Below, in pieces: positions 9,539 through 34,079 of a stretch of DNA of 64,000 nt; positions within the stretch are counted from its first letter, which is position 1, and every line of letters starts with the position of its first letter. Made by a program: the position numbers and the translations under genes. Origin of the DNA: Labrys monachus (GTDB taxonomy: Bacteria; Pseudomonadota; Alphaproteobacteria; Rhizobiales; Labraceae); the NCBI RefSeq assembly GCF_030814655.1, contig NZ_JAUSVK010000001.1:3727001-3791000 (forward strand), written 5' to 3'. The notes beneath the pieces were generated by a model, which was not told the origin of the DNA, did no database searches, and saw only the letters and a list, made by a program, of their open reading frames with translations.

Positions 9539-9556
9539 GCCGTCTTCCGCCACCCG

Positions 9557-9587
9557 GCGTTCGCGCGGAGCCTCTCCGCGCGAACGC
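9557..9587 (+). terminator. Strong hairpin between binding protein and permease genes
   Basis: GCGTTCGCGCGGAG at 9557-9570 pairs perfectly over 14 bases with its complement at 9574-9587, with a 3-base loop and TTCTTTC following. Placed 19 bases after the binding-protein stop, it may act as a partial terminator or an mRNA-stabilising stem that keeps the binding protein more abundant than the membrane parts, as is known for many ABC operons. Confidence 0.7.
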
Positions 9588-9671
9588 TTCTTTCGTCCGG
9601 GGAGGCGCGCGAGCGGCCTCCCATTCTGTCCAATGCGCCGGCCCGCCGGCCGGCGATCACGGGTGTACGCG

Positions 9672-13185: not shown

Positions 13186-13487
13186 GGAGAGGCGATGGAG
13201 AGTCCCTGGACCGTCAGAGGACGGAAATCCCTTGCAGGTTTACGCCGCCCCCACCCCATATGCGCTGCCCCTCTCCCTTGCCCTCTCCCCGCGCTGCGGG
13301 GCGAGGGGGCGGCAGCCTCGCGTCTCGACGGGTAAGCGCGGCAGCACACGGCGTCAACGCCCTATCATGATCGCGCATCGCGATGGGTGCATGCTGAACG
13401 ACGACTCAGAACACGCCGGGCGGTGTCCTAAAAATTCCTTCCAGTATCCGGGCGGCACAGCAGCCAGTCGGGAACCGGGAGGAGAAC
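13186..13487. repeat. Intergenic region with a palindromic repeat element
   Basis: The gap between the two transporters contains a pyrimidine-rich run and a palindrome: CCCTCTCCCCGC at 13281-13292, loop GCT, and GCGGGGCGAGGG at 13296-13307, pairing with one mismatch. CCCTCTCC...GGCGAGGG palindromes of this kind are recurrent intergenic repeats in rhizobial genomes. It may also act as a terminator for the first transporter. No gene is seen. Confidence 0.5.
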
Positions 13488-14495
13488 ATGAAACTGCTGA
13501 AGGCCACGCTGTCCAGGCTGGGCAAGTCTTCCGTCGCGGCCGTTTCCGCCGCCCTTCTTCTTGCGGGGCTCGGAGGGGCGAGCCCCGCCGCCGCGCAGGG
13601 CAAGCCGAGGATCGTCATGCTCGCCGGCCCGCAATGGGACCCCTTCTTCGGCGCCATGAAGAAAGGCGCCGACGACGCCGCCCGCGATCTCGGCGTCAAC
13701 TATCAGTGGATCACCGGCACCGACCCCAACAATTTCGTCGCCGACTACGCCAAGCTGGTGAAGCAGGCGGCGACGCAGAAGCCGGCCGCCATGGTGATCG
13801 GCAACTACTTTCCCGACACCCTCGACCCGATCATCAAGCAGATCACCGCCAGCGGCATTCCCGTCATCATCCAGCATGACGGCGGCGCGTCCTGGCAGCA
13901 GGACGGCGCCATCTCCTATGTCGGCTTCAGCGCCCGGGATCTCGGCCGGGCCGTCGGCGAGCGGGAAGTCGCAGCGGGCGCCAAGTTCGGCCTCTGCGTC
14001 GACCACGTGCCCGGCAACACCACGCTGGACCTCGATTGCCAGGGCTACAACGACGCCTTCAAGGCGGCCGGCGGCGATTCCAAGGTGCTGATGATCCAGT
14101 TCTCGGACGCCAGCAATCCGACCTTCGTCGTCAACGCCATCAAGGGCGCCCTGCAGGGCGACAGGAAGATCGACGCGATCTGGACCATCGGCGCGGTGCA
14201 GGGCGTCGCCTCGGTCGATGCGGTCAAGAAGTCGGGACGCAAGATCGTCAACGGTTCGCTCGGCCTTTCGCTCGGCTCGCTCGAAGCGCTCAAGAACGGC
14301 GATCTGCTCTTCATCGCCGACCTGCAGCCCTATCTCGACGGCTATTATGCGCTGCTCGCGGCCTATCAGTACGTCCAGTTCAAGATGCTGCCGATGGGCC
14401 AGATCTCGACCGGCCCGCTGATGCTGACCAAGGACAATGTGGACGAGGTCCTCAAGGTCAACCAGCAATTCCCGGGCGTTCGCGGCGCCTCCTGA
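13488..14495 (+). CDS. CUT2-type ABC transporter substrate-binding protein (second system)
   Basis: This 335-residue periplasmic binding protein starts at the ATG preceded by GGGAGGAGAAC. The signal peptide is about residues 1-36 (VAAVSAALLLAGLGGASPAAAQ). The mature protein has the sugar-binding-like lobe: IVMLAGPQWDPFFGAMKKGADDAARDLG, then QKPAAMVIGNYFPDTLDPIIKQITASGIPVIIQHDGG. The ligand-pocket residues differ from the first system's protein, so the two probably take related but distinct ligands. Permease and ATPase genes follow. Confidence 0.9.
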   Translation: MKLLKATLSRLGKSSVAAVSAALLLAGLGGASPAAAQGKPRIVMLAGPQWDPFFGAMKKGADDAARDLGVNYQWITGTDPNNFVADYAKLVKQAATQKPAAMVIGNYFPDTLDPIIKQITASGIPVIIQHDGGASWQQDGAISYVGFSARDLGRAVGEREVAAGAKFGLCVDHVPGNTTLDLDCQGYNDAFKAAGGDSKVLMIQFSDASNPTFVVNAIKGALQGDRKIDAIWTIGAVQGVASVDAVKKSGRKIVNGSLGLSLGSLEALKNGDLLFIADLQPYLDGYYALLAAYQYVQFKMLPMGQISTGPLMLTKDNVDEVLKVNQQFPGVRGAS

Positions 14496-14514
14496 CGCAC
14501 GCCGCCGACGAAAA

Positions 14515-14538
14515 GGCGGACCGGCACGCCGGTCCGCC
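14515..14538 (+). terminator. Hairpin between binding protein and permease genes of the second transporter
   Basis: GGCGGACCGG at 14515-14524 and CCGGTCCGCC at 14529-14538 form a perfect 10-base stem with loop CACG, 19 bases after the binding-protein stop. As in the first transporter, it is placed to attenuate transcription or protect the upstream message. Confidence 0.6.
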
Positions 14539-14580
14539 GCAGCGCCGGGCCTCGAGCCGTTCATCCAGCGGAGCACTTGC

Positions 14581-15618
14581 ATGACGTCCTACAGCCAGGA
14601 ACTTCGCGACAGGGGAGCGGCGGCAAAAGCGCCGGCGCGGCGCTTTTCATGGTCCGGGCTGACGCGCCGGCCGGAGTTCGGCGCCTTCATCGCGACAGTG
14701 CTGGTCTATGGCTTCTTCGCCGCCACGGCCTACGACGCGGGCTTCGCCACCTTCGACGGCACCGCGGGCTGGATGAACACCTCCGCCGAACTCGGCATCA
14801 TCGCCATCCCCGTCGGCCTGCTGATGGTGGCCGGCGAATTCGACCTGTCGGTCGGCGCCGTCGTCGGCGCCTCCTCCATCACCGTCGCCATAGGCACCAC
14901 CCTGTTCGGCCTGTCCATCTGGCCGATGATCGCCGCTGCACTGGCCCTCGGCGTCGCCGTCGGGCTCCTGAACGGCTTCCTGGTGGTGCGGACCGGTCTG
15001 CCCTCCTTCATCGTCACGCTGGCCTCGAGTTTCAGCGTCGGCGGGCTTTCGCTCGGCCTGGCACGCGTTTTGAGCAACACGACGTCGGTCTCGGTCAAGT
15101 CGCCGCCGCTCGCCGACTCGCTTTTCGCGGCGACCTGGGGCCAGGCCAACATCGCCATCCTCTGGTGGTTCGCCGTCACCCTCCTCGGCGGCTGGGCGCT
15201 CGCCCGCACCCCGTTCGGCAACTGGATCTTCGCGACCGGCGGCAACCCTGTCGCCGCCCGCGGCGCCGGCGTGCCGACCGGCCTGGTCAAGACCGCGCTG
15301 TTTGTCGCGACGGGGGCCGGCGCCGCGCTGGTCGGCGTCATCCAGGCAGTCGAATACCATTCAGGCAATGCCACGGCGGGGCTCGGCTATGTGTTCCAGG
15401 CGCCGATCGTCGCCGTCATCGGCGGCGTGCTGCTGGGCGGCGGCTACGGCTCGGCCTTCGGCGTGTTCCTCGGCACCGTGATCTTCGGCGTGATCAATAT
15501 CGGCATCTTCTACACCGGATGGAGCACCGATTGGGTGCAGCTCTTCCTCGGGGTGCTGCTGATGCTGGCCGTGCTCACCAATCACTATTTCCGCCGTCTC
15601 GCCATGAGCTCGAGCTGA
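14581..15618 (+). CDS. CUT2-type ABC transporter permease (second system)
   Basis: This 345-residue RbsC-family membrane protein has a soluble N-terminal tail of about 35 residues. Motifs include IIAIPVGLLMVAGEFDLSVGAVVG near residue 80, RTGLPSFIVTLASSF near 140, and PIVAVIGGVLLGGGYGSAFG near 280. Only one permease gene accompanies this binding protein and a single-domain ATPase, so the complex should be a homodimer, as in fructose-type FrcABC systems. The start is the ATG at 14581; the frame is open upstream, but that part is not protein-like. Confidence 0.9.
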   Translation: MTSYSQELRDRGAAAKAPARRFSWSGLTRRPEFGAFIATVLVYGFFAATAYDAGFATFDGTAGWMNTSAELGIIAIPVGLLMVAGEFDLSVGAVVGASSITVAIGTTLFGLSIWPMIAAALALGVAVGLLNGFLVVRTGLPSFIVTLASSFSVGGLSLGLARVLSNTTSVSVKSPPLADSLFAATWGQANIAILWWFAVTLLGGWALARTPFGNWIFATGGNPVAARGAGVPTGLVKTALFVATGAGAALVGVIQAVEYHSGNATAGLGYVFQAPIVAVIGGVLLGGGYGSAFGVFLGTVIFGVINIGIFYTGWSTDWVQLFLGVLLMLAVLTNHYFRRLAMSSS

Positions 15619-15663
15619 GGGCGGGGATGGCGAAGTCGACATTTCCAGCAACGGGATGAAGCC

Positions 15664-16497
15664 ATGCCGTCCGAAGCCACCCCTCTCGTCGAGTTGCGCA
15701 ACGTCTCGAAGCGGTTTGCCGGCGTCCACGCCCTGAGCGACGTCTCGCTCCGCGTTCCGCCGGGCAGCGTCGTCTGCCTCCTCGGCGACAACGGCGCCGG
15801 CAAGTCCACCCTCATCAAGGTGCTGTCGGGCTTCTACCAGCCGTCGGACGGCACCATCCTGCTCGACGGCAAGGAAACGCGCTTCAGCGATCCGCGCGAT
15901 GCCCGCGCCCGGGGCATCGCCACCGTGCATCAGGATGTCGGCACCATTCCCCTGATGAGCGTCGGGCGGAACTTCTTCCTCGGTGCCGAGCCGAAGAAGG
16001 GCTGGGGACCGTTCGCACGCCTCGACATCGACAAGGCCAACGGCATCGCGCTCGAGCAGATCCGCCGCTTCGGCATCACCAGGGTACGCGACGGCAACCA
16101 GCTCGTCGGCGCGCTTTCAGGTGGCGAGCGGCAGGTTCTCGCCATCGGCCGGGCGATGTATTTCGGCGCCCGTGTCCTCATCCTCGACGAGCCGACCTCC
16201 GCCCTCGGCGTCAAGGAAGCCGCCACGGTGCTGCGCTTCATCCTGGCGGCCCGCGCCGAGGGGGTCGGCATCGTCTTCATCACCCACAACGCGCATCATG
16301 CGACGCTGGTCGGGGACTATTTCACCGTGCTCATCCAGGGCAGGGTCGCCGCCAGCTTCAGGCGGGGCGAGAAGAGCAGCGCCGAATTGCTGTCGCTGAT
16401 GGCGGGCGGCGAGCAGATGGAAGACATAGCGGGCGAATTGTCGAGACCCGATCTCGGCATCCCGGGACAGGGCGCCGCACAGGGAGCGAGAACATGA
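15664..16497 (+). CDS. CUT2-type ABC transporter ATPase, single domain (second system)
   Basis: This 277-residue ATPase has Walker A GDNGAGKST at about residue 43, the Q-loop in ATVHQDVG, signature ALSGGERQVLAIGRAM, Walker B VLILDEPTSALG and the switch His in VFITHN. Unlike the first system it has only one nucleotide-binding domain, as in FrcA, so two copies would serve the complex. The last codons overlap the next gene by four bases (ATGA at 16494), tying the serine hydrolase to the transporter operon. Confidence 0.93.
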   Translation: MPSEATPLVELRNVSKRFAGVHALSDVSLRVPPGSVVCLLGDNGAGKSTLIKVLSGFYQPSDGTILLDGKETRFSDPRDARARGIATVHQDVGTIPLMSVGRNFFLGAEPKKGWGPFARLDIDKANGIALEQIRRFGITRVRDGNQLVGALSGGERQVLAIGRAMYFGARVLILDEPTSALGVKEAATVLRFILAARAEGVGIVFITHNAHHATLVGDYFTVLIQGRVAASFRRGEKSSAELLSLMAGGEQMEDIAGELSRPDLGIPGQGAAQGART

Positions 16498-17681
16498 CGA
16501 TAGTGGACGTCCAGGCGATGGACAGCCTTCTTCGTGAGCCGGTGGACGCGAAGGAGATTCCGGGAGTCGTGGCGATGGCCGCGGACCGCGGCGGCCGCCT
16601 CTATGAGGGCGCCTTCGGGGTGCGCAGCCTCGCCACCGGCGTGCCGATGAGCCTCGATACCGTGCTCTGGTATGCCTCGATGACCAAGGCGCTGGTCGCG
16701 ACCGGCGCCATGCAGCTGGTCGAGCAGGGGCGTGTCGCCCTCGACGAGCCGATCGGCCGCATCATCCCGGCCCTCGCCGCGCCGCAGGTGCTCGACGGCT
16801 TCGACGCCGCCGGCAAGCCCCTCCTCAGGCCGGCGAAGAGGCCGATCACCCTGCGCCATCTCCTCACCCACACCTCGGGCTTCGGATACGACATCTGGAA
16901 CGCCTCGGTGGAGCGCTACATGCGCGAGAACGGCGTGCCGCTGCTGGTCGATTGCAAGCTGAGCTCGCTCGGCCAGCCGCTGGCGGCCGATCCCGGCGAG
17001 AAGTGGGAATACGGCATCAGCATCGACTGGGTCGGCCAGGTCGTCGAGGCGCTTAGCGGGCAATCCCTGGAGGCCTATCTGACCGAGCACCTGTTCAAGC
17101 CCCTCGGCATGAACGACACCGCCTTCATCGTGCATCCCGAGCGGCGCGCGCGCCGGGCCGACGTCCACCAGAGGCATCCCGACGGCTCTCTGGAGACGAT
17201 CGATCACGAGATCTCCCAGGAGCCCGAATTCTTCATGGGCGGCGGCGGGCTCTATGGCACCGCGGGCGACTATATCGCCTATATCCGGATGATGCTGAAC
17301 GATGGGCGCGCACCGGACGGCACGGCCGTGCTCCAGCCGGAAACCGTCGATCTCATGGGGCGCAACGCCATCGGTGACATCGAGGCCGGCGTGCTGCGGC
17401 CCGTCCTGCCCAAGCTCGCCAACGATACCGATTTCTTCCCCGGCATGTCGCAAAAATGGGGGCTGAGCTTCCTCATCAACACCGCCGACGCCCCGAACGG
17501 GCGCAGTGCCGGCAGCCTCACCTGGGCGGGCCTCGCCAACTGCTACTTCTGGATCGACCGCACCAAGCGCCTCGGGGGCGTGGTGATGACGCAGATCCTG
17601 CCCTTCGGCGATCCGCGCGTGCTGAGGCTCTACGGCGCCTTCGAGCAGCAGGTCTATCGTCGCCTCGCAAAGGCGGCGTGA
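16494..17681 (+). CDS. Serine hydrolase of the beta-lactamase/EstB family
   Basis: This 395-residue protein has the penicillin-binding-protein fold. The catalytic S-x-x-K is Ser62-Met-Thr-Lys65 (WYASMTKALVATG), a Tyr motif is present as WEYGISIDW, and LLTHTSGFGYDIWN and GGGGLYGTAGDY are family landmarks. No signal peptide is visible, so it should act in the cytoplasm on an imported substrate as an esterase, lactonase or transesterase rather than as a secreted beta-lactamase. Its start overlaps the ATPase stop, which implies cotranslation with the second transporter. Confidence 0.88.
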   Translation: MTIVDVQAMDSLLREPVDAKEIPGVVAMAADRGGRLYEGAFGVRSLATGVPMSLDTVLWYASMTKALVATGAMQLVEQGRVALDEPIGRIIPALAAPQVLDGFDAAGKPLLRPAKRPITLRHLLTHTSGFGYDIWNASVERYMRENGVPLLVDCKLSSLGQPLAADPGEKWEYGISIDWVGQVVEALSGQSLEAYLTEHLFKPLGMNDTAFIVHPERRARRADVHQRHPDGSLETIDHEISQEPEFFMGGGGLYGTAGDYIAYIRMMLNDGRAPDGTAVLQPETVDLMGRNAIGDIEAGVLRPVLPKLANDTDFFPGMSQKWGLSFLINTADAPNGRSAGSLTWAGLANCYFWIDRTKRLGGVVMTQILPFGDPRVLRLYGAFEQQVYRRLAKAA

Positions 17682-17798
17682 ACCACGCCCTGCGGCAGCC
17701 GAGCACAGGATCGGAGGCGGGGATCGATGGTCGCCCCTCTCCCTTCTCGCATATTTCCGCCGAAGCCGGCGGCGGCATGGGAATGTCGGCGTCCCGGT

Positions 17799-18629
17799 TC
17801 AGCTGAAGATGCTGGCCTTGCCCTGGTTCTGGACTGCCCGGCGCGCCATGACGCGAACGAGGTTGGCCCGATAGGCCGTGGAGGCGTGGATGTCGCCGAT
17901 GAGGCTGTCGGGATCGAGGGCGGCGCCATCGAGCGCCTGTGCCGAGAAGTCCCGCGCGAGGGCCTCCTCGGCCTCCGCCCAGCGGAACACCCCTTCATTG
18001 CCGGCGCCCGTCACCGCCACCCGGATCGAGCCGTCGCCGAGGCGGCTGACGAAGACCGCCGCCATCGCGTAGCGCGAGGCCGGATTGCGGAACTTGGCGT
18101 AGCCGGCGGAAGCGGGAATCGGGAAGGTCAGCGCCGTGACGATCTCGCCTGGCTCCAACGCCGTCGCATAGAGACCGGTGAAATAGTCGCCGGCGGCGAT
18201 CGAGCGCCGGTCGGTGACGACCGTGGCGTCCAGCGCCAGCACGGCCGACGGGTAGTCGGCAGCCGGATCGTTGTTGGCGACGGAGCCGCCGATCGTGCCG
18301 CGATTGCGCACCTGGACGTCGCCGATCGAGCCGGCAAGGGCCGCAAGCACCGGAATCGCCGTCCTCACCGTCTCGGACTTCGACACCGCGACATGGGTGG
18401 CGCCGCCTCCGATGCGCAGCAGGCCGTCAGCGATGTCGATGCCCTGCAGGTCCGGGATGGCGCGCAGGTCGATGAGCGTGTCCGGGGCGGCGAGGCCCGC
18501 CTTCATCACCGGAAGCAGCGTATGGCCGCCGGCAATGAACATGGCGTCGTCGCTTCCGCCGTGAAGCGCGAGGGCATCCGACAGCGTGACCGGGCGGTGA
18601 TAGCTGAAATTCGGCAGGACGATGCTCAT
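17799..18629 (-). CDS. Molybdenum hydroxylase FAD-binding subunit (CoxM-like)
   Basis: This 276-residue medium subunit of the xanthine dehydrogenase/CO dehydrogenase family passes electrons from the iron-sulphur subunit to FAD. FAD-binding landmarks are [15 protein letters not shown] at about residue 32 and [20 protein letters not shown] at about 110. The start at 18629 overlaps the stop of the small-subunit gene by four bases; the frame is open further upstream, but that is the other gene's sequence. It is the last gene of the minus-strand run leuC-leuD-coxS-coxM. It needs the large subunit encoded at 21371-23749. Confidence 0.9.
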
Positions 18630-19120
18630 GATGCAACTTTCGACGCCGGCGCCGGCCGGCTCATCGCCGCGCTGGCCGACATGATGGCCTTGACGATGTT
18701 CTGGTAGCCCGTGCACCGGCACAGATTGCCTTCCAGTTCGTCGCGCACCGTCTCTTCGGTCAGCGCCGCGCCGTGCCGGGCGATCATGTCGACTGCCATC
18801 ATCAGCATCCCCGGCGTGCAGAAACCGCATTGCAGGCCGTGATGGGCGCGGAAGGCTTCCTGCACGGGGTGAAGCGTCTCGCCCCGTGCCAGGCCCTCGA
18901 TCGTGGTGACCTGGGCGCCGTCGGCCGAGGCCGCCAGGACGGTGCAGGACTTCACGGCCACGCCGTCCATGATGACGGTGCAGGCGCCGCATTGGGTGGT
19001 ATCGCAGCCGACATGGGTTCCGGTCAGATGCAGGTGCTCGCGCAGGAATTGGACCAGCAGGATCCGGTCTTCAATGTCGCGCCTGTAAGGCGTGCCATTG
19101 ACGTACAGTATGACGCTCAA
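18626..19120 (-). CDS. Molybdenum hydroxylase 2Fe-2S subunit (CoxS-like)
   Basis: This 164-residue small subunit carries two 2Fe-2S centres. The N-terminal plant-ferredoxin-like centre is in [18 protein letters not shown] with a fourth Cys in VKSCTV, and the C-terminal centre is in CGFCTPGML and [10 protein letters not shown]. Length and all eight cysteines are normal for the family. It lies 33 bases downstream of leuD and overlaps coxM by four bases, so it is embedded in a leuCD-coxSM operon. It relays electrons from the molybdenum site to FAD. Confidence 0.93.
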
Positions 19121-19153
19121 CGTGCGTTTCCTCCATTCGGCGATCGTGGCGGA

Positions 19154-19759
19154 TCAGCCTTCGCTCTCGGCGCGACGCCGCTCGAATTCGTCGACCTTGT
19201 CCATCTGGGACAAGGTATAGTCCAGTTCGTCGATGCCCTTGAGCAGGCAATGCTTGGAAAAGGGATCGATGTCGAAGGAATGGGTCACACCGTCCGGCCC
19301 GGTGAGCCTCTGGGCCTCCAGGTCGACTTCGATCGTCGCGCCGGGTTCCCGCGACAGGGCGGCGATCAGCGCCGTCGTCGCCTCGGCCGGCAGGACGACG
19401 GGCAGCAGGCCGTTCTTCAGGCTGTTGCTGAAGAAGATATCCCCGAAGCTCGAGGCGACGACCACGCGGTAGCCATAGTCGGCGATGGCCCAGACGGCGT
19501 TCTCGCGGGATGACCCGCAGGCGAAGTTCTCCTCGCCGACCAGGATGCGGGTATTGCGAAACGCCGGCTGGTTGAGGACGAAGCCACTCCTCTCCGCACC
19601 GGTCTCATCGAAGCGCAGATCGTGGAAAAGGTACTGGCCGAAGCCACCGGAGCGGGGCTTGGACAGGAAACGGGCCGGCAGGATCTGGTCGGTGTCGACA
19701 TTGATGCCGGCGAAGGGCAAGGCCGGCGCGCGGAAGGTCTCGAACGATTCCACCGTCAT
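19154..19759 (-). CDS. leuD: 3-isopropylmalate dehydratase small subunit (LeuD family)
   Basis: This 201-residue swivelling subunit of the aconitase superfamily begins with the conserved GINVDTDQILPARFL. It also has FACGSSRENAVWAIADYGYRVVVASSFGDIFFSNSLKNGLLPVVL, the typical substrate-recognition and core motifs. Size is normal. The start overlaps the leuC stop by four bases. Its neighbours coxS and coxM, not leucine genes, make a dedicated catabolic isomerase plausible; related enzymes act on methylmalate or dimethylmalate. Sequence motifs alone do not separate these roles. Confidence 0.88.
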   Translation of the reverse strand: MTVESFETFRAPALPFAGINVDTDQILPARFLSKPRSGGFGQYLFHDLRFDETGAERSGFVLNQPAFRNTRILVGEENFACGSSRENAVWAIADYGYRVVVASSFGDIFFSNSLKNGLLPVVLPAEATTALIAALSREPGATIEVDLEAQRLTGPDGVTHSFDIDPFSKHCLLKGIDELDYTLSQMDKVDEFERRRAESEG

Positions 19760-21189
19760 TCTCCCAGCTGAAGCTGCCGCACGTCGGCGAGCCGCCCGGT
19801 CACCGCCGCGGCGGCGGCCATGGACGGGCTCATCAGATGCGTCCGCGCCCCGCGACCCTGCCGCCCGACGAAGTTCCTATTGGACGTGGAGGCGCAGCGC
19901 TCGCCCGCCGCCACCGTCTCGCCATTGGTGCCGAGGCAGAGCGAGCAGCCCGCGTCGCGCCACTGGAAGCCGGCCTGGCGGAAGATGAGGTCGAGACCTT
20001 CGGACTCGGCCTGCTCCTTGACCAGCCCGGAGCCCGGCACCACCCAGGCTTCGACGCCCGGATGCACGCTGCGGCCTTTGACGACGGCGGCGGCGGACCG
20101 CAGATCCTCGATGCGTCCGTTGGTGCAGGAACCGATGAACACGCGGTCGACGCGGATCTCCGAAAGCGCCGTGCCCGGTGACAATCCCATATAGGCCAGC
20201 GCCTTCGACATGCCCTCCCGGCGCTCGGCCGTCGCGGCGCCGTCGGGATCCGGGACATGGCCGTCGATCGGCGCGACGTCCTCGAGGCTGGTGCCCCAGG
20301 TCACCATCGGCGCGATGTCTCCGGCATCGAGCGTCACCTCGCGGTCGAAGACCGCATCGGCATCGCTGGCGATCTTCGACCAGCGCTCCACCGCGCGGTC
20401 CCAGGCATCGCCTTCCGGCGGCGCGTAGTTGCGACCCCTGACATAGGCAAAGGTCGTCTCGTCCGGCGCGATCATGCCGGCCCGGGCGCCCGCCTCGATC
20501 GACATGTTGCACACGGTCAGCCGCCCTTCCATGGACAGGCTGCGGATCGCCGAGCCCGCATATTCGATGACGTGGCCGACCGCGCCGGCGGGGCCGATCT
20601 TCCGGATGATGGCCAGGATAACGTCCTTGGCAGTGACACCGAAGCCGAGTTCGCCCTCGACGAAGATCCGCATCGACTTCGGCTTGCGCTGCCAGAGCGT
20701 CTGGGTGGCGAGCACCTGGGTCGCCTGGGTCATGCCCACGCCGAAGGCAAGCGCGCCGAGAGCGCCATGCGTCGAGGTGTGGCTGTCGGCACAGACGATG
20801 GTCATGCCCGGCTGGCTGATGCCCTGCTCGGGGCCGATCACATGGACGATGCCCTGCCGGCGATCGGCGAGCTCGAACAGGGTGATGCCGTAATCGTTGG
20901 AATTCTCGACAAGCGACTGGACCATGTCGCGCCGTTCGGCGCTGGCGATGCGTTCGACAATGCGCCCGTCGGTCGGCACATAGTGATCGGGCGTGCCGAA
21001 GGTCTGCTTCGGCGAGCGCGGCCGCAACTGCCGGGCCTGCAGGAATTCGAAGGCGGGGGCATAGCCGTCATGGATGAGATGCGTGTCGACATAGAGCAGC
21101 GTCTGCCCGTCGGCGCGCTCCAGGATGCTGTGCTGCGCCCAGATCTTGTCCAGCATGGTCATCGCGGCAGGACGAGGGGCCGGGATCAT
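19756..21189 (-). CDS. leuC: 3-isopropylmalate dehydratase large subunit (LeuC family)
   Basis: This is a 477-residue aconitase-family subunit binding a 4Fe-4S cluster. Landmarks are LLYVDTHLIHDGYAPAF, VCADSHTSTHGALGALAFGVG, VFIGSCTNGRIEDLR with the first cluster Cys, and DAGCSLCLGTNGE with the other two. The start at 21189 is chosen because GGAGA lies five bases upstream; an ATG at 21210 is in frame without a site. It carries the full active-site set. It heads the leuC-leuD-coxS-coxM run, behind a hairpin that follows the coxL-like gene. Confidence 0.88.
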   Translation of the reverse strand: MIPAPRPAAMTMLDKIWAQHSILERADGQTLLYVDTHLIHDGYAPAFEFLQARQLRPRSPKQTFGTPDHYVPTDGRIVERIASAERRDMVQSLVENSNDYGITLFELADRRQGIVHVIGPEQGISQPGMTIVCADSHTSTHGALGALAFGVGMTQATQVLATQTLWQRKPKSMRIFVEGELGFGVTAKDVILAIIRKIGPAGAVGHVIEYAGSAIRSLSMEGRLTVCNMSIEAGARAGMIAPDETTFAYVRGRNYAPPEGDAWDRAVERWSKIASDADAVFDREVTLDAGDIAPMVTWGTSLEDVAPIDGHVPDPDGAATAERREGMSKALAYMGLSPGTALSEIRVDRVFIGSCTNGRIEDLRSAAAVVKGRSVHPGVEAWVVPGSGLVKEQAESEGLDLIFRQAGFQWRDAGCSLCLGTNGETVAAGERCASTSNRNFVGRQGRGARTHLMSPSMAAAAAVTGRLADVRQLQLGE

Positions 21190-21337
21190 AGGATTCTCCA
21201 TAGAAATCAAGTCGGGCAGGCATGAGAGACAAGCGTTATCAGGTCGATCCAGCGCTCATCCACGCCGGAACTCTGACGATTCCGACAATTCTATTTCTAG
21301 ACCGCGTGAAGTGCCCGAAAGGAATCTTTGTTGGGAA

Positions 21338-21366
21338 GGCGATCATCGCAAAGCGCGATGATCGCC
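21338..21366 (-). terminator. Terminator-like hairpin after the CoxL-like gene
   Basis: GGCGATCATCGC at 21338-21349 and GCGATGATCGCC at 21355-21366 form a perfect 12-base stem with a 5-base loop, only four bases beyond the CoxL-like stop in the direction of minus-strand transcription. It probably separates or attenuates the leuB-coxL and leuC-leuD-coxS-coxM segments. The remaining 130 bases before the leuC start should hold a promoter or allow readthrough. Confidence 0.65.
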
Positions 21367-21370
21367 GCCC

Positions 21371-23749
21371 TCACGCCGCCGATGGATGCTCGGCGCCGGC
21401 TTTCGCTTCCTGGATGGCATTCCAGATCCGCTCCGGCGTGGCGGGCATGTCGATGTGGCGTATGCCGAACGGCCGCAACGCATCGGTGACTGCGTTCATC
21501 ACCGACGTCAGGGAGCCGGCGCAGCCCGCCTCGCCGCAGCCCTTGGCACCGAGGGGATTCGTCAGGGCCCGCGTCGGATGGTTGCCCATGGCGATCGGCG
21601 GCACGTCGCCGGCGCGCGGCAAAGCGTAGTCGGTGAAGGAGCCGGTCAGGAGCTGGCCCTGTTCGTTGAACACCGTGCGCTCCATCAGCGCCTGTCCGAT
21701 GCCCTGCGCGACACCGCCATGCGACTGCCCCTCGACCAGCATCGGATTGACGATCGTGCCAAAATCGCTCACCGCCGTGTAGCGCACCACGTGGCAGGCG
21801 CCGGTCTCCGGATCGATCTCCACCTCCGCGACATGGCACCCGTTCGGAAAGGCCGAAGGCACGCCGTCATGCACATGCGTGACGTTCAGTGTGGCAGGCA
21901 GGCCCGGCGGAAGATCGAGCCCGGCATGAAGCCTGGCGGCGAGGTCCATCAGGCCGATCTCGCGGTCGGTCCCGACCACGACGAAGCGGCCGGCGGCGAA
22001 TTCCACGTCCTGCTCGGCCGCCTCCAGCTCGTGGGCGGCGATCTTGCGGCCGGCCTCGATCACCTTGGCGGAAGCCTCGATCATGGCGCGGCCGCTGGCG
22101 ACCAGCGATTTCGAGCCGCCGGTGCCGCTTCCGGCTACCAGTTCGTCGCTGTCGCCCTGGATCAGCTTCACCTTGTCGAAGGGGATGCCGAGTTCCGACA
22201 CCAGCACCTGGGCGAAGGCGGAGGCATGCCCCTGCCCGGTGTCCAGCGTGCCGGTGATCATGGTGACGGTGCCGTCCGGCTCGAAACGCACGCCGCCCAT
22301 CTCCGTGCCGGGCGCTCCCGTCACTTCGAGATATTGGCCGACGCCGCGCCCGCGCAGCAGGCCGCGTGCCCTGCTCTCCTCCCGGCGCGCGGCAAAGCCG
22401 TCCCAGTCGGAGAGACGGAGCGCATCGTCCATCAGCGCGGTGAAATCGCCGCTGTCATAGACCTGCCGGCCCGCCGAGGTGAAAGGGAGCTCCTGCGGCC
22501 TCACATGGTTGCGCCGCCGCAGTTCCACCGGATCGATGCCGAGCTCCAGCGCGGCGAGATCGATGACGCGCTCCACATAGTAGTTCGCCTCGGGGCGGCC
22601 GTTGCCGCGATAGGCGCCGACAGGATTGGTGGTGGTCAGCACGCATTTCGTCTCCACCTCGAGCAGCGGCGTGCGGTAGACGCTCGGCAGGTTCTTCATC
22701 TGGTTGACCGCCGGCGGGAAGACGCCGCCCTGGGTCAGATAGGCGCCGACATTGCCGACGCCGCGCACGCGCATCGCCACGAAATTGGCGTCGGCGTCGA
22801 GCGCGAGCTCGATCGTCATCTCGTGATCGCGCCCATGCGTGTCCGACAGGAAGCTCTCGCTGCGCGAATCCGACCATTTGACCGGCCGGCCGAGGTCGCG
22901 CGCGGCATGGAGCACGCACAGATCCTCGGCGAAGGGATGGGCCTTCATGCCGAAGGAGCCGCCGACATGGCCGGTGAGGATCCGCACCTTGCCATCCTCG
23001 ACACCGAGCATGTGCTCGACCACCTTGCGCGCGCCATGGGCGCCCTGGCAGGCGTGGCGCAGGGTGAAGCGCTGCGCCTGCGCATCGTAGCTGCCCAGCG
23101 AGGCTCGCGGCTCCATGGCCGCGACGATGACGCGATTGCTGATGATCGGCAGGCGCGTCACATGGGCGGCGGCAGCAAAGGCCGCCGCCACCGCGGCACT
23201 GTCCCCGAAGTGGAAGTCGAGCGCGGCATTTCCGGGAAATTCGTCGTGAACCAGCGGCGCGCCCGGCTTCACCGCCTCGCTCGCCGCGGTCACCGCGGGC
23301 AAGGCCTGGATGTCGACATCGACCAGGACCGCCGCCTCGCGTGCGGCGACGGCGCTTTCCGCCACCACGAAGGCGACGCCCTCGCCGATATGGCGGACCT
23401 TGCCCACGGCCAGCGCGCGCCAGGCCGGCCAGCGCATGGGAGAGCCGTCGCGGTTGGGAGCCGTCACGCCGGCCGGCTGCGGACGCTGGCCCGCCTTCAC
23501 CAGATCCTCGCCCGTATAGATGGCGAGGACGCCGGGTATGGCGAGAGCCGCCGTCAGGTCGATACCCCGGATCAGGCCATGGGCATGCTGGCTCCTGACC
23601 ACGGCGCCATAGGCCTGCCCGGGCAGGTTCTGGTCGTCGGAATAGGATCCCTCGCCACGCACCAGCGTGCGGTCTTCCTTGCGCGGAACGGACTGGCCGA
23701 TACCGACAAGCGGGGGCCTGTGCTCATTCGAGTTGACCGGCGCTTCCAT
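21371..23749 (-). CDS. Molybdenum hydroxylase large subunit (CoxL-like, not true CO dehydrogenase)
   Basis: This 792-residue molybdopterin-cytosine-dinucleotide-binding subunit follows GAGGA upstream of its ATG. Landmarks are FVVAESAVAAREAA, GHVGGSFGMKAHPFAEDLCVLHAARDLGRPVKW, AYRGNGRPEANYYVER at the active-site loop, VTMITGTLDTGQGHASAFAQV, and the C-terminal GAKGCGEAGCAGS with the catalytic Glu. The loop is not the AYRCSFR of form I CO dehydrogenase, so CO oxidation is unlikely; hydroxylation of a heterocycle or aldehyde-like substrate is expected. The gene is separated from its small and medium subunits by leuC and leuD, which is unusual. Confidence 0.9.
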   Translation of the reverse strand: MEAPVNSNEHRPPLVGIGQSVPRKEDRTLVRGEGSYSDDQNLPGQAYGAVVRSQHAHGLIRGIDLTAALAIPGVLAIYTGEDLVKAGQRPQPAGVTAPNRDGSPMRWPAWRALAVGKVRHIGEGVAFVVAESAVAAREAAVLVDVDIQALPAVTAASEAVKPGAPLVHDEFPGNAALDFHFGDSAAVAAAFAAAAHVTRLPIISNRVIVAAMEPRASLGSYDAQAQRFTLRHACQGAHGARKVVEHMLGVEDGKVRILTGHVGGSFGMKAHPFAEDLCVLHAARDLGRPVKWSDSRSESFLSDTHGRDHEMTIELALDADANFVAMRVRGVGNVGAYLTQGGVFPPAVNQMKNLPSVYRTPLLEVETKCVLTTTNPVGAYRGNGRPEANYYVERVIDLAALELGIDPVELRRRNHVRPQELPFTSAGRQVYDSGDFTALMDDALRLSDWDGFAARREESRARGLLRGRGVGQYLEVTGAPGTEMGGVRFEPDGTVTMITGTLDTGQGHASAFAQVLVSELGIPFDKVKLIQGDSDELVAGSGTGGSKSLVASGRAMIEASAKVIEAGRKIAAHELEAAEQDVEFAAGRFVVVGTDREIGLMDLAARLHAGLDLPPGLPATLNVTHVHDGVPSAFPNGCHVAEVEIDPETGACHVVRYTAVSDFGTIVNPMLVEGQSHGGVAQGIGQALMERTVFNEQGQLLTGSFTDYALPRAGDVPPIAMGNHPTRALTNPLGAKGCGEAGCAGSLTSVMNAVTDALRPFGIRHIDMPATPERIWNAIQEAKAGAEHPSAA

Positions 23750-23862
23750 TCGTCTTCCTCACCAGATCGTTCTTGAAAAATGTCGATATGAATTTCGAAT
23801 CTGCAATGCGTCAAAACAACGGCCCGTGACCGCCTCCCCCTTGCGGAGAGGAAGCGACAGCC

Positions 23863-24972
23863 TCACGAGAGGGAAGCCGAAACCAGCTTGCTGCCGCCGC
23901 CCGACTGCAGGACGGCCTCGACCACGGCATCGCCCATCTCGCGGGTGCCGACCAGCCTGCTGCCGGGCTGCATGATGTCCCCCGTCCGATAGCCGTCGCG
24001 CAGGACCGAGCCTACGGCTTCCTCGACGCGAGCGGCATGGTTTTCGAGCCCGAAGGAATAGCGCAGCATCATCGCCACCGACAGGATGGCGGCCAGCGGA
24101 TTGGCGATGTTCTTGCCGGCGATGTCGGGCGCCGTGCCGTGCACGGGCTCGTAGAGACCCTTGTTGTCGCTGCCCAGCGAGGCGGAAGGAAGCATGCCGA
24201 TGGACCCGGCGAGCATGGCGGCGGCGTCCGAGAGGATATCGCCGAAGACGTTGCCGGTGACGATGACGTCGAACTGGCGGGGATTGCGGATCAGCACCAT
24301 GGAGGCGGCGTCGATATAGAGGTGGCTGAGTTCCACGTCCGGATATTGCTTCGAGACCTCGATGACGACCTCGCGCCACAGCGCCATCGTCTCCAGCACA
24401 TTGGCCTTGTCCACCGAGCAGAGCTTCTTCCGGCGCCGCCTCGCAGCCTGAAAGCCGGCATGGGCGATCCGCTCGATCTCCGCGTCGGTATAGCGCATCG
24501 TGTTGAAGCCGACGCGCCTGCCTTCGGCATCCGTCTCGATGCCCCGCGGCTGGCCGAAATAGAGATCGCCGTTGAGTTCGCGCAGGATGACCATGTCGAC
24601 ACCGCCGACGACGTCCGGCTTCAGGGTCGAAGCGTCGAGCAGTTCCGGGAAGAGCTTCACCGGCCGGAAATTGGCGTAGAGCGACAGCGCCTTGCGCAGC
24701 TTGAGGAGGCCGTAGCCGGCGCCTTCGCTGGGCGGGCGCTTCTCGTCCTCCGGCACGCCGGTGCCGCCGAGCAGGATCGCGTCGGCCTGACGCGCGACGG
24801 CCAGGGTCTCGGGAGGCAGCGCGTCGCCGACGGTGTCGAGGCCCTCGCCGCCGATGACCGCCTCCTGCAGATCCAGGGAAAACTCGTTTCCGATGACCGC
24901 GCGCAGGGCCTTGACCGCCTCCGCCGTCACTTCTTTTCCGATGCCGTCACCTGGGAGAACCGCGATCTTCAA
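23863..24972 (-). CDS. leuB: 3-isopropylmalate dehydrogenase (LeuB family)
   Basis: This 369-residue beta-decarboxylating dehydrogenase has [14 protein letters not shown] at the start, the substrate-loop arginines in [16 protein letters not shown] and [34 protein letters not shown] with the catalytic Lys, [30 protein letters not shown], and [20 protein letters not shown] for NAD+. These are close to genuine LeuB motifs rather than tartrate or isocitrate dehydrogenase. The next gene downstream is the CoxL-like gene, 113 bases away on the same strand. Together with leuCD it would isomerise and oxidatively decarboxylate a 2-alkylmalate. Confidence 0.9.
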
Positions 24973-25131
24973 GGCAATACCTTTCGACAGGACAGGGCGG
25001 GAATGGACGATCGTCTTCCGCCGTTGCCGTCTTATAGGAGCCGGCCCGGCGCCGCCGGGAGTCGTTCTTCGGAACGCTCACATCGTCGGCTGCGATGGTT
25101 TGGGCATGCGATGAACCGCGGGAGAACGCCC

Positions 25132-26022
25132 TCAGGCGCCGTCCTTCGTCAGGTGCTTGAGCAGGAGCTTCACCGGAGACGGCAGGGACTGGCCGTCCTG
25201 AACGCAGATGTTCCACTGGCGCACGGCCCAGGGCTCGTCGAGCTCGATTGCCTTGAGCTTGCCGCCGGTGACGTAGCGCGCGGCGCATCCCTCGGGCACG
25301 AGCCCGACCCCGAGTTCGGCCTCGACCATGCCCCTCACGGTCTCGAAACCATTGACACGCACCGGCATCTTCAGCGGCCGGCTGAGATCCGACGCGGCCC
25401 GCAGCACCAGGGAATCGAGAAAGCTTCCCTTCGTCGGACCGATCAGGTCGTAATCCGGCAGGTCGGCGAAACGCAGCGACGGCCTGTCGCCCAGCGGATG
25501 GCCGAGAGGAAGCAGCACGACGAGCCGGTCGGCGCGATAGGGAAAGATCTTCAGGCCCTGCCGCGGCACGACGCCGCCGAAGATGCCGATATCCGCGGCG
25601 TTCTCGGCGACCGCCTCGACGGCCTGCTGGCTAGTGCCTTCCTGGAGGACGATACGAATGGCCGAATGGCGCGCAAGGAAGTCCCTGAGGTCGTCGGGCA
25701 GATGCTGGATGATGGTGGAAACGCTGGCATAGACGCGCACCTGGCCGCTGACACCGCTGGCGTGATGGGCGAGTTCGATCTCCATCTGGTTGAGATCGCG
25801 CATCAGCACCCGTGAATGGTGCAGCAGCGTATGGGCGGAAGCCGTCAGTTCCAGCCCCTTCGAGCTGCGGTGGAAGAGCGGCGTGTTGAGCCTCGCCTCG
25901 AGATCCGACATGCGCTTGCTGACCGCCGACGCCGCGATATGCTCGCGGTCGGCCGCCTTGGCGATGCTCTGCTCTTCACAGACCGCAACGAAAAGCTGGA
26001 GCGACAGAAGGTCGAAACGCAC
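25132..26022 (-). CDS. LysR-family transcriptional regulator
   Basis: This 296-residue regulator begins at a GTG at 26022 (VRFDLLSLQLFVAVCEEQSIAKAA), with GGAGA eight bases upstream; the longer frame to 26076 is not LysR-like. The N-terminal winged helix carries REHIAASAVSKRMSDLEARLNTPLFHR, and an effector domain follows from about residue 90. It lies upstream of leuB on the same strand and is divergent from the SDR gene, so it probably controls both directions. LysR proteins of this style commonly respond to a pathway intermediate. Confidence 0.9.
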   Translation of the reverse strand: MRFDLLSLQLFVAVCEEQSIAKAADREHIAASAVSKRMSDLEARLNTPLFHRSSKGLELTASAHTLLHHSRVLMRDLNQMEIELAHHASGVSGQVRVYASVSTIIQHLPDDLRDFLARHSAIRIVLQEGTSQQAVEAVAENAADIGIFGGVVPRQGLKIFPYRADRLVVLLPLGHPLGDRPSLRFADLPDYDLIGPTKGSFLDSLVLRAASDLSRPLKMPVRVNGFETVRGMVEAELGVGLVPEGCAARYVTGGKLKAIELDEPWAVRQWNICVQDGQSLPSPVKLLLKHLTKDGA

Positions 26023-26168
26023 GTGGCATTCTCCGGTATCGGCAGCGGATGTCGGGCCGCCGGCAAGGCGGGTCACCAGGCCCGCCGCGACGGCATGACC
26101 GCATCGCCGACCGCGACGACCGCGTTCCGAATGAAGTCTTCTGGCGGACCGTCAAACGGCGAATATGG

Positions 26169-26215
26169 CCCTTACCCTTGATCCTCCCAGAGTCAAGGAG
26201 ATTTGCCGTTAGGGC
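26169..26215. promoter_or_regulatory. Candidate LysR operator in the divergent intergenic region
   Basis: The arms CCTTGA at 26176-26181 and TCAAGG at 26193-26198 form a dyad spaced by 11 bases, which is the geometry of LysR boxes. They are nested within an outer imperfect pair, GCCCTTAC at 26169-26176 and GTTAGGGC further right. The site lies about 60 bases before the SDR start and 150 bases from the LysR start. It is an inference from symmetry and position only. Confidence 0.4.
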
Positions 26216-26258
26216 AGGCGCATGCGCGAGCCTGACGACGCCAGTTCGGATTTGATCA

Positions 26259-27011
26259 ATGAACCTCTATGATTTCAAGGACCGCGTCGCCGTCGTCACC
26301 GGCGGTGCGCAGGGCATCGGCCTGGCCGTGGTGCAGCGCCTCGCCCGGTCGGGCGCCAGGGTCGCCATCTGGGACCGCGACGGCGCCCTGCTCGGCCGCA
26401 CGCTCGCCGAGCTGGCGCTGCCGGACGCCGTCCTCGGCGTGAACGTCGATATCGGCGACCTCGCCTCGGTGGAGGCGGGCGTCGCCCGCACGTTGGAGCG
26501 CTTCGGGAAGATCGACATCCTCGTCAACAATGCAGCGCTCGTCGGCCCGAATGCGCCGACCTGGGAATATCCGCCCGAGGCGTTCGCCGAAGTCGTGCAT
26601 GTCGGCCTCGTCGGCACCTTCCATTGCTGCCGCGCGGTGGTGCCGTCCATGCGCGAGCGCAATTACGGGCGCATCGTCAACCTCTCCTCGGTCGCCGGCA
26701 AGGAGGGCAATCCCAATGCGGTCGCCTATTCCTCGATGAAGGCGGGCGTGATCGCCTTGACGAAATCGCTCGGCAAGGAGCTCGCCGCCACGAACATCGC
26801 CGTCAACTGCGTCACGCCGGCGGTGGCGAAGACGCCCGGCGCGATGATGCAGACGCAGGAGCATATCGCCTACATGCTCAGCAAGATCCCGCGCGGCAGG
26901 ATGCTGGAACTCGAGGAAGCCGCCTCGATGATCTGCTGGCTGGCGACGGAAGAGAATTCGTTCACCACCGGCGCGGTGTTCGATCTGTCGGGCGGCCGCG
27001 CAACCTACTGA
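26259..27011 (+). CDS. Short-chain dehydrogenase/reductase
   Basis: This 250-residue classical SDR has the NAD(P)-binding TGGAQGIG at about residue 14, NNAA at about 90, the catalytic Ser in VNLSSVAG and the YSSMK motif (Tyr-x-x-x-Lys) at about 155-159. An acidic residue after the second strand (AIWDRD) suggests NAD+ preference. The gene is divergent from the LysR regulator and 19 bases upstream of the glutaredoxin-DinB gene. It would oxidise an alcohol or reduce a ketone in the neighbouring pathway. Confidence 0.9.
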   Translation: MNLYDFKDRVAVVTGGAQGIGLAVVQRLARSGARVAIWDRDGALLGRTLAELALPDAVLGVNVDIGDLASVEAGVARTLERFGKIDILVNNAALVGPNAPTWEYPPEAFAEVVHVGLVGTFHCCRAVVPSMRERNYGRIVNLSSVAGKEGNPNAVAYSSMKAGVIALTKSLGKELAATNIAVNCVTPAVAKTPGAMMQTQEHIAYMLSKIPRGRMLELEEAASMICWLATEENSFTTGAVFDLSGGRATY

Positions 27012-27867: not shown

Positions 27868-28632
27868 TCAGCCCAGCCGCGACAGAAAGGCCCTCGTCCT
27901 TTCCTGCTGCGGGGCGCCGAAGATCTGCCCGGGGCTGCCCTGCTCGACGATGACGCCGCCGTCCATGAACAGCACGCGATCGGCGACCTCCTGGGCGAAG
28001 CGCATCTCGTGGGTCACGACGATCATCGTCATGCCGTCGGCGGCAAGGCCGCGCATGACGGCGAGGACCTCGCCGACCAGTTCGGGGTCGAGCGCGCTGG
28101 TCGGTTCGTCGAACAGCATCAGCTTCGGCTTCATGGCGAGCGCCCGCGCGATCGCCACGCGCTGCTGCTGGCCGCCCGACAGCTGGTGGGGATAGGACGC
28201 CAGCTTGTCCTCGAGCCCCACCCGCTTCAGCAGGGCCTTCGCCTCGTCGACGACCTCCTGGCGATTGCGCCGCTGCACGCAGATCGGCGCCTCGATGACG
28301 TTCTGGAGCGCCGTCATATGGGTGAACAGGTTGAAGCGCTGGAAGACCATGCCGATCTCGGCCCGCTTGACCGCGACCTCCGCCTCGCCGAGTTCGTAGA
28401 GCTTGTTGCCGACACGGCGGTAGCCGACGAGCTCGCCATCGACATAGAGGGCGCCGCCGTCGATCTTCTCGAGATGGTTGATGCATCGCAGCAGGGTCGA
28501 TTTGCCCGATCCCGACGGGCCGACCAGGCAGACGACCTCGCCCTGCCCGACATGGAAGTCAACGCTCCTGAGCACCTGCAGATGGCCGAAGCTCTTGGAG
28601 ATGCGCTGGCCCAGCACGGTCGGCTTCGTCAT
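27868..28632 (-). CDS. Polar amino acid ABC transporter ATPase
   Basis: This 254-residue ATPase of the HisP/GlnQ class has Walker [10 protein letters not shown] at about residue 37, the Q-loop [18 protein letters not shown], signature [17 protein letters not shown], Walker [16 protein letters not shown] and the switch His in VVTHEMRFA. These wordings are diagnostic of amino-acid importers. The start at 28632 overlaps the permease stop by four bases, although the frame is open much further upstream. It completes the binding protein-permease-ATPase set read on the minus strand. Confidence 0.95.
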
Positions 28633-29567
28633 GGCGCGGCTCCGTTCAGCTTGGCGGCGAGCACGGCCGCAGCGCCGCCGGCGGCGACGTCCTTCGGCGC
28701 GAACGCCTTCTCGACCAGTCCCTGGAGGAAGGACAGCACCGTGGTGGCGGCGAGATACCACACGCAGGCGACGAGAAGCAGCGGGATGGTCTGGAAGGTC
28801 CGCGAGGAAATGTTCTGCACGGAGTAGAGGAGATCGGACAGCGCGATGACGCTCACCAGCGACGTCGTCTTCAGCATGCTGATGATCTGGTTGCCGGTCG
28901 GCGGGATGATGATGCGGATGGCCTGGGGCAGCACGATGCGCCGCATGATGCGGCCCTGCGTCATGCCCAGCGCTCTCGCCGCCTCCCGCTGCCCCGGATC
29001 GACGGACAGGATGCCGGCCCGGACGATCTCGCTCATATAGGCGCCTTCGTTCAGCCCGAGGCCGAGCAGCGCCGCCGTATAGGGGGTGATCAGGTCGTTG
29101 GCGGAGGCCTGATACAGCACCGGCCCGAAAGGCAGCTTCAGATAGACGATGGGCACGATGATCGCCAGGTTGAACCAGAATATCAGCTGCACGAGGATCG
29201 GCGTGCCGCGGAAGAGCCAGACATAGGCGGAAGCGGGGATGCGTAGGAAGACGTTGGTGGAGATGCGCATGGAGGCGCAGACCGTGCCGATGACGGTGCC
29301 GATCAGCATGGAGACGACGGTGAGCCAGATCGTCAGCCAGAGTCCCTGCAGGATGGTCGGGGAGAAGACGTAGGCGGCGACGACATCCCACTCGAAGTTC
29401 GGGTTTTCGGCCGCGGACAGGATGAACCAGATCGTGGCCAGGGCCATGACGATGCCGGCCACCCACCGTCCCGGCCGCCGCCGCGGCACGACGGGCAGCA
29501 GATGATCTTCGACGTCGTCCCTCGACTGCACGGCGGCGCTCGGCCTGGTCGCTTTGTTTGCCAACAT
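28629..29567 (-). CDS. Polar amino acid ABC transporter permease
   Basis: This 312-residue permease of the HisMQ class has about five membrane segments, the first at about residue 40 ([18 protein letters not shown]). A longer gap than usual separates the first segment from the channel core. The EAA loop is [33 protein letters not shown]. Only one permease gene is present, so the channel is probably a homodimer. The start is uncertain: ATG 29567 (MLANKATRP) is used here, and an in-frame ATG at 29609 would add 14 residues. Confidence 0.9.
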
Positions 29568-29699
29568 CACAATCTCAATCGATGAGCGGTCGGAACTTTG
29601 CAAGGTCATGCTGTCAAGCCGGATGCGGTGGGAACGGCGGTCGGGATCGGGCAGAGCTTGCAGGCGAGCCGTCGAGGCTCGCCTGCAAAGGCATCGAAA

Positions 29700-30671: not shown

Positions 30672-30750
30672 AGGATTCCCTTTCTGGATGAAGTGGTTCG
30701 TCGGCATCCCCTTCTGGCGAGGGATTGCTCCGATAGGTTGGGTTGCCGCC

Positions 30751-32457: not shown

Positions 32458-32523
32458 TTCCGTCTCCTTCATCGAGGTGCGTGCCGGGAGGGCGGGCCAT
32501 GCGCGATCCGCATCGGGCCCCGC

Positions 32524-34020: not shown

Positions 34021-34079
34021 TTTCAACCCCGTCCATTCCAAGCCTGACATGCGATCCACCGGGGGTGGCACCCCGATAA

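Follow-up and report, generated by a model that had tools for sequence, protein, structure and literature searches.

In a 64,000-nucleotide stretch of the Labrys monachus genome, referred to here as the window, paralogues of leuB, leuC and leuD are interleaved with the genes of a CoxLSM-type molybdenum hydroxylase. This LeuBCD set is a specialized second copy which, with its own LysR-type regulator and a short-chain dehydrogenase/reductase (SDR), most likely breaks down a branched hydroxy-acid and does not serve leucine synthesis. The complete reading that we favour, and to which we give somewhat less than an even chance, is that of a horizontally spread catabolic module built on specialized LeuBCD enzymes, with a route from LysR through LeuCD and LeuB to the SDR and with CoxLSM as a local addition. 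The minus-strand order is LysR, leuB, coxL, a hairpin, leuC, leuD, coxS and coxM; the six genes from leuB to coxM are all intact, with four-base overlaps at leuC/leuD and coxS/coxM, with gaps of 113 bases between leuB and coxL and of 33 bases between leuD and coxS, and with coxL separated from coxS and coxM by leuCD. From leuB to coxM, the coordinates confirm the order that a preliminary description of the same DNA had given, down to the hairpin, both overlaps and the split hydroxylase; LysR and the SDR were absent from that description.

LeuB (23863–24972, a predicted decarboxylating 3-substituted-malate dehydrogenase), the aconitase-family large subunit LeuC (19756–21210) and the small subunit LeuD (19154–19759) pass the NCBIfam cut-offs of the leucine families (TIGR00169, 459.9 versus 353.2 bits; TIGR00170, 659.7 versus 560.25 bits; TIGR00171, 196.7 versus 116.25 bits) and keep their catalytic motifs, including the Fe–S cysteine motifs SCTNGR and GCSLCLGTN of LeuC and GSSRE of LeuD; the true start of leuC is uncertain, with several ATGs downstream of 21210. 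Duplicate leucine-synthesis genes would score in the same way, yet this explanation is highly improbable. The genome, a single 6.92-Mb contig, holds other copies of LeuC, LeuD and LeuB (57, 45 and 48% identical, respectively), each at a different place. LeuC relatives were collected from 84,980 species genomes with exact peptide patterns; of the 218 stretches matched, 180 carry a gene for a LeuC relative, and the best 80 of these 180 were used. In the resulting LeuC tree (94 rows, a quick method, midpoint root, support by the Shimodaira–Hasegawa-like approximate likelihood-ratio test, SH-aLRT), the window LeuC pairs with that of Devosia sp. Root436 (support 100) inside a 19-row clade (support 97) and stands apart from the other L. 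monachus LeuC, which lies among 36 rows, mostly alphaproteobacterial by their titles, beyond a branch of support 100. The clade consists of 15 of the best 80 stretches, three plasmid loci and the window, and its members come from Labrys, Devosia, Variovorax, Paraburkholderia/Caballeronia, Acidisphaera and one member of the Xanthobacteraceae. Two matches to the LeuA model TIGR00973 in the L. monachus genome are below its cut-off, and no isopropylmalate synthase is among the features listed beside the four annotated clade clusters, the gene tables of which are incomplete. Because of the other genomic copies, the separate LeuC clade and a residue change in LeuB described below, the window LeuBCD is not considered to be the leucine set; the preliminary description had already denied the locus a role in leucine synthesis, and the second leuBCD and the tree placement that it proposed to look for both bear this out.

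The LeuB residues were numbered by alignment with 1A05. Glu88, Leu91, Leu92 and Val193 have been named as part of the active-site lining, with Glu88 the position that best distinguishes tartrate enzymes from isopropylmalate enzymes (PMC2796266). In the window LeuB, Glu88 is replaced by Gly, whereas Leu91 and Leu92 are retained. The Gly is found in all 19 clade rows and the Glu in all 20 of the others compared; likewise, the residue following the active-site Asp222 is Ala throughout the clade (19/19) and Asn in the others (20/20), as well as in 4iwh and 1a05. Asp136, Met159-Arg160 and Leu193 were also considered as clade-specific and were rejected, and only the positions of Glu88 and of the Asn beside Asp222 were retained, because 4iwh has all of the remainder and 1a05 all but Arg160. 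In LeuC, the Thr of the GCSLCLGTN motif occurs in 19/19 clade rows, with Met in 54 of 73 others, and LeuD differs at Lys34 and Phe40 (18/19 clade rows each). In another study, substrate choice is reported to be set by a short region of the small subunit (PMC7308503). A tartrate dehydrogenase is not indicated by the model TIGR02089 (233.2 bits versus a cut-off of 470.4), and the position of Glu88 is Gly in the window LeuB versus Trp in tartrate dehydrogenase (PMC2796266). At the level of sequence, the changes in LeuB, LeuC and LeuD argue for a substrate other than 3-isopropylmalate, without naming it. A sister LeuC clade (13 rows, support 99: L020, L023, L025–L029, L031, L032, L034, L035, L038 and L138), in which 12 of the 13 stretches have no LeuB match, is possibly another specialized use of LeuCD.

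The neighbouring genes were compared at 21 loci, namely those of the clade and two Paraburkholderia plasmid loci (L219 and L220; LeuC 63–65%, outside the tree); the 20 loci other than the window are each 15–25 kb long. The closest relative, Devosia sp. Root436, carries LysR, leuB, leuC and leuD in the window order (66, 76, 80 and 62% identity, respectively), with genes for two esterases, a tripartite ATP-independent periplasmic (TRAP) transporter, an alcohol dehydrogenase and a different type of SDR after leuD; no cox match was found in the 17.4 kb examined. Three annotated Paraburkholderia/Caballeronia loci (the sister clusters) contain leuCDB, an ATP-binding cassette (ABC) importer, an SDR, a diketo-acid hydrolase, a second binding protein, an SMP-30 lactonase and LysR; at the Paraburkholderia PREW-6R locus, which lacks such a hydrolase, a gene for a major facilitator superfamily transporter separates leuB from the SDR gene and the LysR is of the Variovorax type. 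The cluster of Acidisphaera sp. L21 (contig NZ_LMUY01000001.1) includes an importer, an amidohydrolase and an iron alcohol dehydrogenase nearest to the 4-hydroxybutyrate dehydrogenase model (411.8 bits, below the cut-off of 500). With its transporters, lactonases or esterases, alcohol dehydrogenases and own LysR, the cluster looks catabolic, in line with what had been proposed at the outset. LeuC (E ≤ 1e-200) and CoxL (1e-250) each found no match in four genus mates, so the module looks acquired.

The 12 Variovorax loci have the order LysR, TctC, leuC, leuD, leuB and lack this type of SDR; the only extras matched are SMP-30 (60–63%) in two of them and hydrolase-type matches 7–9 kb away in four. 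Together with a TctA gene after leuB at the Xanthobacteraceae locus, and with the many alkyl malates that isopropylmalate dehydrogenases take according to PMC2796266, these loci could reflect simple alkyl-malate catabolism, in which an imported citramalate-like or isopropylmalate-like acid would be converted by LeuCD and LeuB into an ordinary 2-oxo acid while the SDR and CoxLSM serve other substrates. We regard this as unlikely, if still a serious competitor, since the replacement of Glu88 by Gly extends across the clade, Variovorax included, and since the SDR and LysR are linked to the leu genes both in Paraburkholderia/Caballeronia and in the window.

This linkage is the reason that the module is taken to reach past the leuB–coxM interval, and LysR and the divergent SDR are counted as members. 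The LysR gene (25132–26076, minus strand; Pfam LysR_substrate and HTH_1) heads the minus-strand group upstream of leuB, and its product shares 66% identity with the LysR encoded beside leuBCD in Devosia. A tblastn search with LysR at E ≤ 1e-60 returned five plasmid records, each with the match within 9 kb (about 8 kb) of a leuC of 63–64%. The SDR gene (26259–27011, plus strand) has relatives of 66–69% in six Paraburkholderia/Caballeronia plasmid records, each 3–5 kb from a leuC of 63–65%, the next record being at 62%; all five LysR-matching records are among these six. Thus, the closest plasmid relatives of both genes were found only within 9 kb of a related leuC. A weaker LysR relative (46%) is present in one other of 385 genomes of the class, at a locus without leuBCD matches, and no SDR relative was found in a scan of viral contigs. 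As the association is conserved across alphaproteobacteria and betaproteobacteria, LysR, LeuBCD and the SDR appear to be the core of this branch. The sequence comparisons therefore establish the paralogy, the clade, its residue changes and the LysR–LeuBCD–SDR linkage, whereas every reaction and substrate below, and the role of CoxLSM, we infer.

The best PDB match of the SDR is 6D9Y (286.7 bits, E = 1.3e-84), described as a putative 2-keto-3-deoxy-L-rhamnonate (L-KDR) 4-dehydrogenase, 51 and 54% identical to two L-KDR dehydrogenases, with Lys209 and Arg247 singled out (PMC11199699); the window SDR retains both residues. The hydrolase of the sister clusters is closest in the PDB to 8gsr, an L-2,4-diketo-3-deoxyrhamnonate hydrolase, and scores 426.5 bits against NF053535 (cut-off 500). 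In the route that we propose, LysR would sense the substrate, LeuCD would shift the hydroxyl of a 2-substituted malate, and LeuB would oxidize and decarboxylate the resulting 3-substituted malate to a 2-oxo acid, which in L. monachus and in Paraburkholderia/Caballeronia would most likely be a 4-hydroxy-2-oxo acid. A malate with a 1-hydroxyalkyl side group would give such a product, and since this malate could form a lactone, the lactonases would also be explained. The SDR would then oxidize the 4-hydroxy-2-oxo acid at C4 to a 2,4-dioxo acid, which in the sister clusters would be split by the diketo-acid hydrolase to pyruvate and an acid. In L. monachus this hydrolase may be supplied from elsewhere in the genome, where relatives of 68 and 64% are found at other sites. 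The LysR–LeuBCD–SDR core and the likely 4-hydroxy-2-oxo acid product are the stronger part of this proposal.

A more specific version has an outside chance: a new route by which 2-(1-hydroxyalkyl)malates, itatartarate for instance, and lactones of these acids, such as 2-hydroxyparaconate, would be broken down aerobically through LeuCD, LeuB and an LRA5-type SDR, ending in the diketo-acid hydrolase in the sister clusters or, only in L. monachus, in a molybdenum aldehyde oxidase that would yield oxaloacetate. If the side group were hydroxymethyl, the SDR product would be an aldehyde, and its oxidation would give oxaloacetate. A bacterial lactonase that converts 2-hydroxyparaconate into itatartarate, a 2-(hydroxymethyl)malate, has been described; engineered Pseudomonas putida carried out this ring opening but probably assimilated neither compound, 2,4-dihydroxybutyrate was found as a dead-end product of itatartarate, and an aconitase-like dehydration of itatartarate was put forward speculatively as a first step (PMC9875883). 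If LeuCD and LeuB accepted itatartarate, their product would be 4-hydroxy-2-oxobutanoate, and reduction of this acid would give the 2,4-dihydroxybutyrate of that study.

Several observations weigh against the favoured reading. Only six of the 21 loci, none of them from Variovorax (12 loci), have the SDR (at least 50% identity), so that members may follow different routes once LeuB has acted; the six plasmid records are closely related to one another and are therefore not independent; and the Devosia SDR is unrelated (28–29% to the SDR of loci L181 and L182). No diketo-acid hydrolase match was found in the window at E ≤ 1e-15, and neither of the two genomic hydrolase candidates has such an SDR in its 16-kb stretch. 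The assignment of a lactonase in L. monachus is a guess; the SMP-30 lactonase of the sister clusters has no close relative in this genome (best 34%, over partial length); and CoxLSM is not conserved in the clade, with coxL at one of 21 loci. Separately, an SMP-30-family protein is encoded at 51136–52053 of the window, 24 kb from the module and 28% identical to the sister-cluster lactonase, and at genome positions 5408000–5424000 (L223) the genes for a relative of the diketo-acid hydrolase (65%) and for another CoxL-like protein (44%) lie on opposite strands, some 0.9 kb apart.

The cox genes encode the molybdopterin (CoxL, 21371–23749; Pfam MoCoBD_1/2 and Ald_Xan_dh_C), [2Fe–2S] (CoxS, 18626–19120; Fer2 and Fer2_2) and flavin adenine dinucleotide (CoxM, 17799–18629; FAD_binding_5) subunits of a xanthine-oxidase-family hydroxylase; the cofactor motifs are intact, with both cluster motifs in CoxS and the catalytic-Glu motif KGCGEAG in CoxL. 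The loop AYRGNGR of CoxL aligns with AYRCSFR of 1ffu, which we take to be the active-site loop of aerobic carbon monoxide dehydrogenase; because of this loop and of a TIGR02416 score of 472.8 bits, below the cut-off of 991.15, CoxLSM is not regarded as a carbon monoxide dehydrogenase. The best-scoring NCBIfam family of CoxL is the glyceraldehyde dehydrogenase NF041018 (565.5 bits, below the cut-off of 790), on the basis of which an aldehyde is guessed as the substrate, and in the favoured reading CoxLSM would most likely oxidize an aldehyde of the same route.

Its parts seem to have separate histories, because the nearest kin of CoxL and of CoxSM differ. CoxL, which matched in 54 of 385 class genomes (E ≤ 1e-230, L. 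monachus included), groups in a tree with 20 other coxL products chosen from these matches (support 100/100, 57–62% identity), and a match to CoxS or CoxM is missing from 18 of the 20 stretches of 8–18 kb around these genes (L118–L137, alphaproteobacteria). The nearest plasmid relatives of CoxS and CoxM are pairs from rhizobia and roseobacters, three annotated examples of which have coxG adjoining; CoxM is 55–64% identical to the CoxM of the 25 plasmid records listed. The Salipiger and Celeribacter CoxSM stretches have no CoxL match, and that of Neorhizobium petrolearium has two CoxL (45 and 40%). Many genomes with a lone coxL of this clade also carry ordinary coxSLM operons. The idea that a lone coxL pairs with a separate coxSM was rejected as a general rule from the 20 CoxS places chosen (one being the second of L. 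monachus itself), of which 19 are S–L–M operons with their own CoxL (42–46%) and one, L193, is an S–M pair without L.

The preliminary description had proposed that the hydroxylase and LeuBCD share a pathway, an idea that by its own account would fail if the order leuB–coxL–leuCD–coxSM occurred in this strain only. This order was found at no other locus examined (the best 80 of the 180 LeuC relatives and the plasmid loci), nor in the four genus mates at the thresholds given above, so that the shared pathway is unproven. A version in which CoxLSM acts first, oxidizing an aldehyde or ring to a substituted malate for LeuCD and LeuB, draws on the same-strand interleaving with short gaps and on a gene for a [2Fe–2S] molybdenum-hydroxylase subunit after the Acidisphaera cluster (a 41% CoxS match at L015:17091–17384, truncated by the end of the locus and separated from the amidohydrolase gene by 179 bases), which brings coxS to two of the 21 loci. 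We consider it distinctly unlikely, since the stretches examined at 19 of the 21 loci match none of the three Cox subunits and most members of the clade thus apparently do without CoxLSM. Outside the LeuC clade, locus L033 has leuCD and a 48% CoxL a few kilobases away on the other strand. CoxLSM may instead be a passenger, its genes having landed in and beside the leuBCD operon with only transcription in common; the interleaved order found at no other locus examined, the cox-free LysR–leuB–leuC–leuD of Devosia and the different kin of CoxL and CoxSM give this explanation a modest chance, against which all three subunits are intact with their cofactor motifs despite flanking leuCD, where useless genes should decay. 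Overall, CoxLSM seems either to have been recruited locally, perhaps as an aldehyde oxidase, or to be a passenger.

Pantoate is broken down via 4-oxopantoate, 3,3-dimethylmalate and 2-oxoisovalerate. Here the SDR as alcohol dehydrogenase, CoxLSM as aldehyde oxidase and the LeuB-type enzyme could catalyse these three steps in turn. This is very unlikely: 3,3-dimethylmalate has no C3 hydrogen, which would leave LeuCD, present at every clade locus, idle, and the closest match of the SDR is to enzymes for 2-keto-3-deoxy acids. No paper for 'dimethylmalate dehydrogenase' was among the matches listed in open-licence PubMed Central.

The hairpin in the coxL–leuC gap (21338–21366, minus strand), just after coxL, has a perfect 12-bp stem and a 5-nt loop; the 67-nt stretch around it has a folding z-score of −3.75. 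It is present as a single copy within the window and is absent from the listed terminator-like sites of the window. No sigma-70-like promoter was found in 17600–26400, and the module could be transcribed as one or as two transcripts. Convergent with coxM, a β-lactamase-fold hydrolase (AcmB-like; 16494–17681, plus strand; NF052559, 451 bits, below the cut-off of 550) is a candidate esterase or lactonase of uncertain membership, and is the last gene of a plus-strand sugar-type ABC importer group (8228–17681) of binding proteins, permeases and ATPases. On the other side, a minus-strand group at 27868–34071 holds genes of an ABC importer, the binding protein assigned by Pfam (SBP_bac_3) and the ATPase by eye, together with genes for an aldehyde dehydrogenase and a thiamine diphosphate enzyme (PRK08199 family, 780.6 bits), and is conceivably tied to a 2-oxo acid product. 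Further along, a ubiD-type decarboxylase gene is found as two separately matching halves (35028–35747 and 37015–37551) with an integrase-core open reading frame (rve, HTH_21; 36132–36962) between them, followed by a ubiX-type gene (37722–38303) 54% identical to the ubiX-type gene near the Neorhizobium coxGSM group.

In public records the genes of this clade are annotated as leuC, leuD and leuB, the 3-isopropylmalate enzymes, and these labels would mislead metabolic models. If the proposal is correct, sugar-acid enzymes would receive a 2-keto-3-deoxy-type acid from LeuCDB, a new connection between two textbook pathways, and bacteria would have a route for branched hydroxy-diacids. The preliminary description knew of no pathway with this gene set; among the matches listed in open-licence PubMed Central, no paper connects catabolic LeuBCD enzymes to LRA5/LRA6-type enzymes or to a molybdenum hydroxylase either.

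Compared with known systems, the window set resembles bacterial leucine LeuB, LeuC and LeuD in family and catalytic motifs, and differs in its own clade, the Glu88-to-Gly change of LeuB, the Thr of LeuC and different neighbours and regulator. CoxLSM shares the AYRG-GR motif and three subunits with what we take to be form-II CoxL-type molybdenum hydroxylases, although its CoxL clade mates mostly stand alone and its subunit genes are split by leuCD. Clostridial nicotinate fermentation likewise combines a molybdenum hydroxylase with a dimethylmalate dehydratase; this parallel, drawn in the preliminary description, holds as an analogy of enzyme types, but the window LeuD scores only 68.7 bits with the LeuD/DmdB model TIGR02087 (cut-off 108.95) and the hydroxylase is not conserved in the clade. 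The nonphosphorylating L-rhamnose pathway offers LRA5 and LRA6 as counterparts of the SDR, by way of 6D9Y, and of the sister-cluster hydrolase, by way of 8gsr and NF053535, whereas here LeuCDB and not a sugar-acid dehydratase would supply the 2-keto-3-deoxy acid, the sister hydrolase remains below its cut-off and 6D9Y is itself only putative (PMC11199699). Finally, whereas the enzymes named for the Pseudomonas itaconate/2-hydroxyparaconate cluster are coenzyme A-based, with no LeuCDB among them, that cluster resembles the proposed route in the opening of a lactone to itatartarate and in the aconitase-like step on which its authors speculate (PMC9875883).

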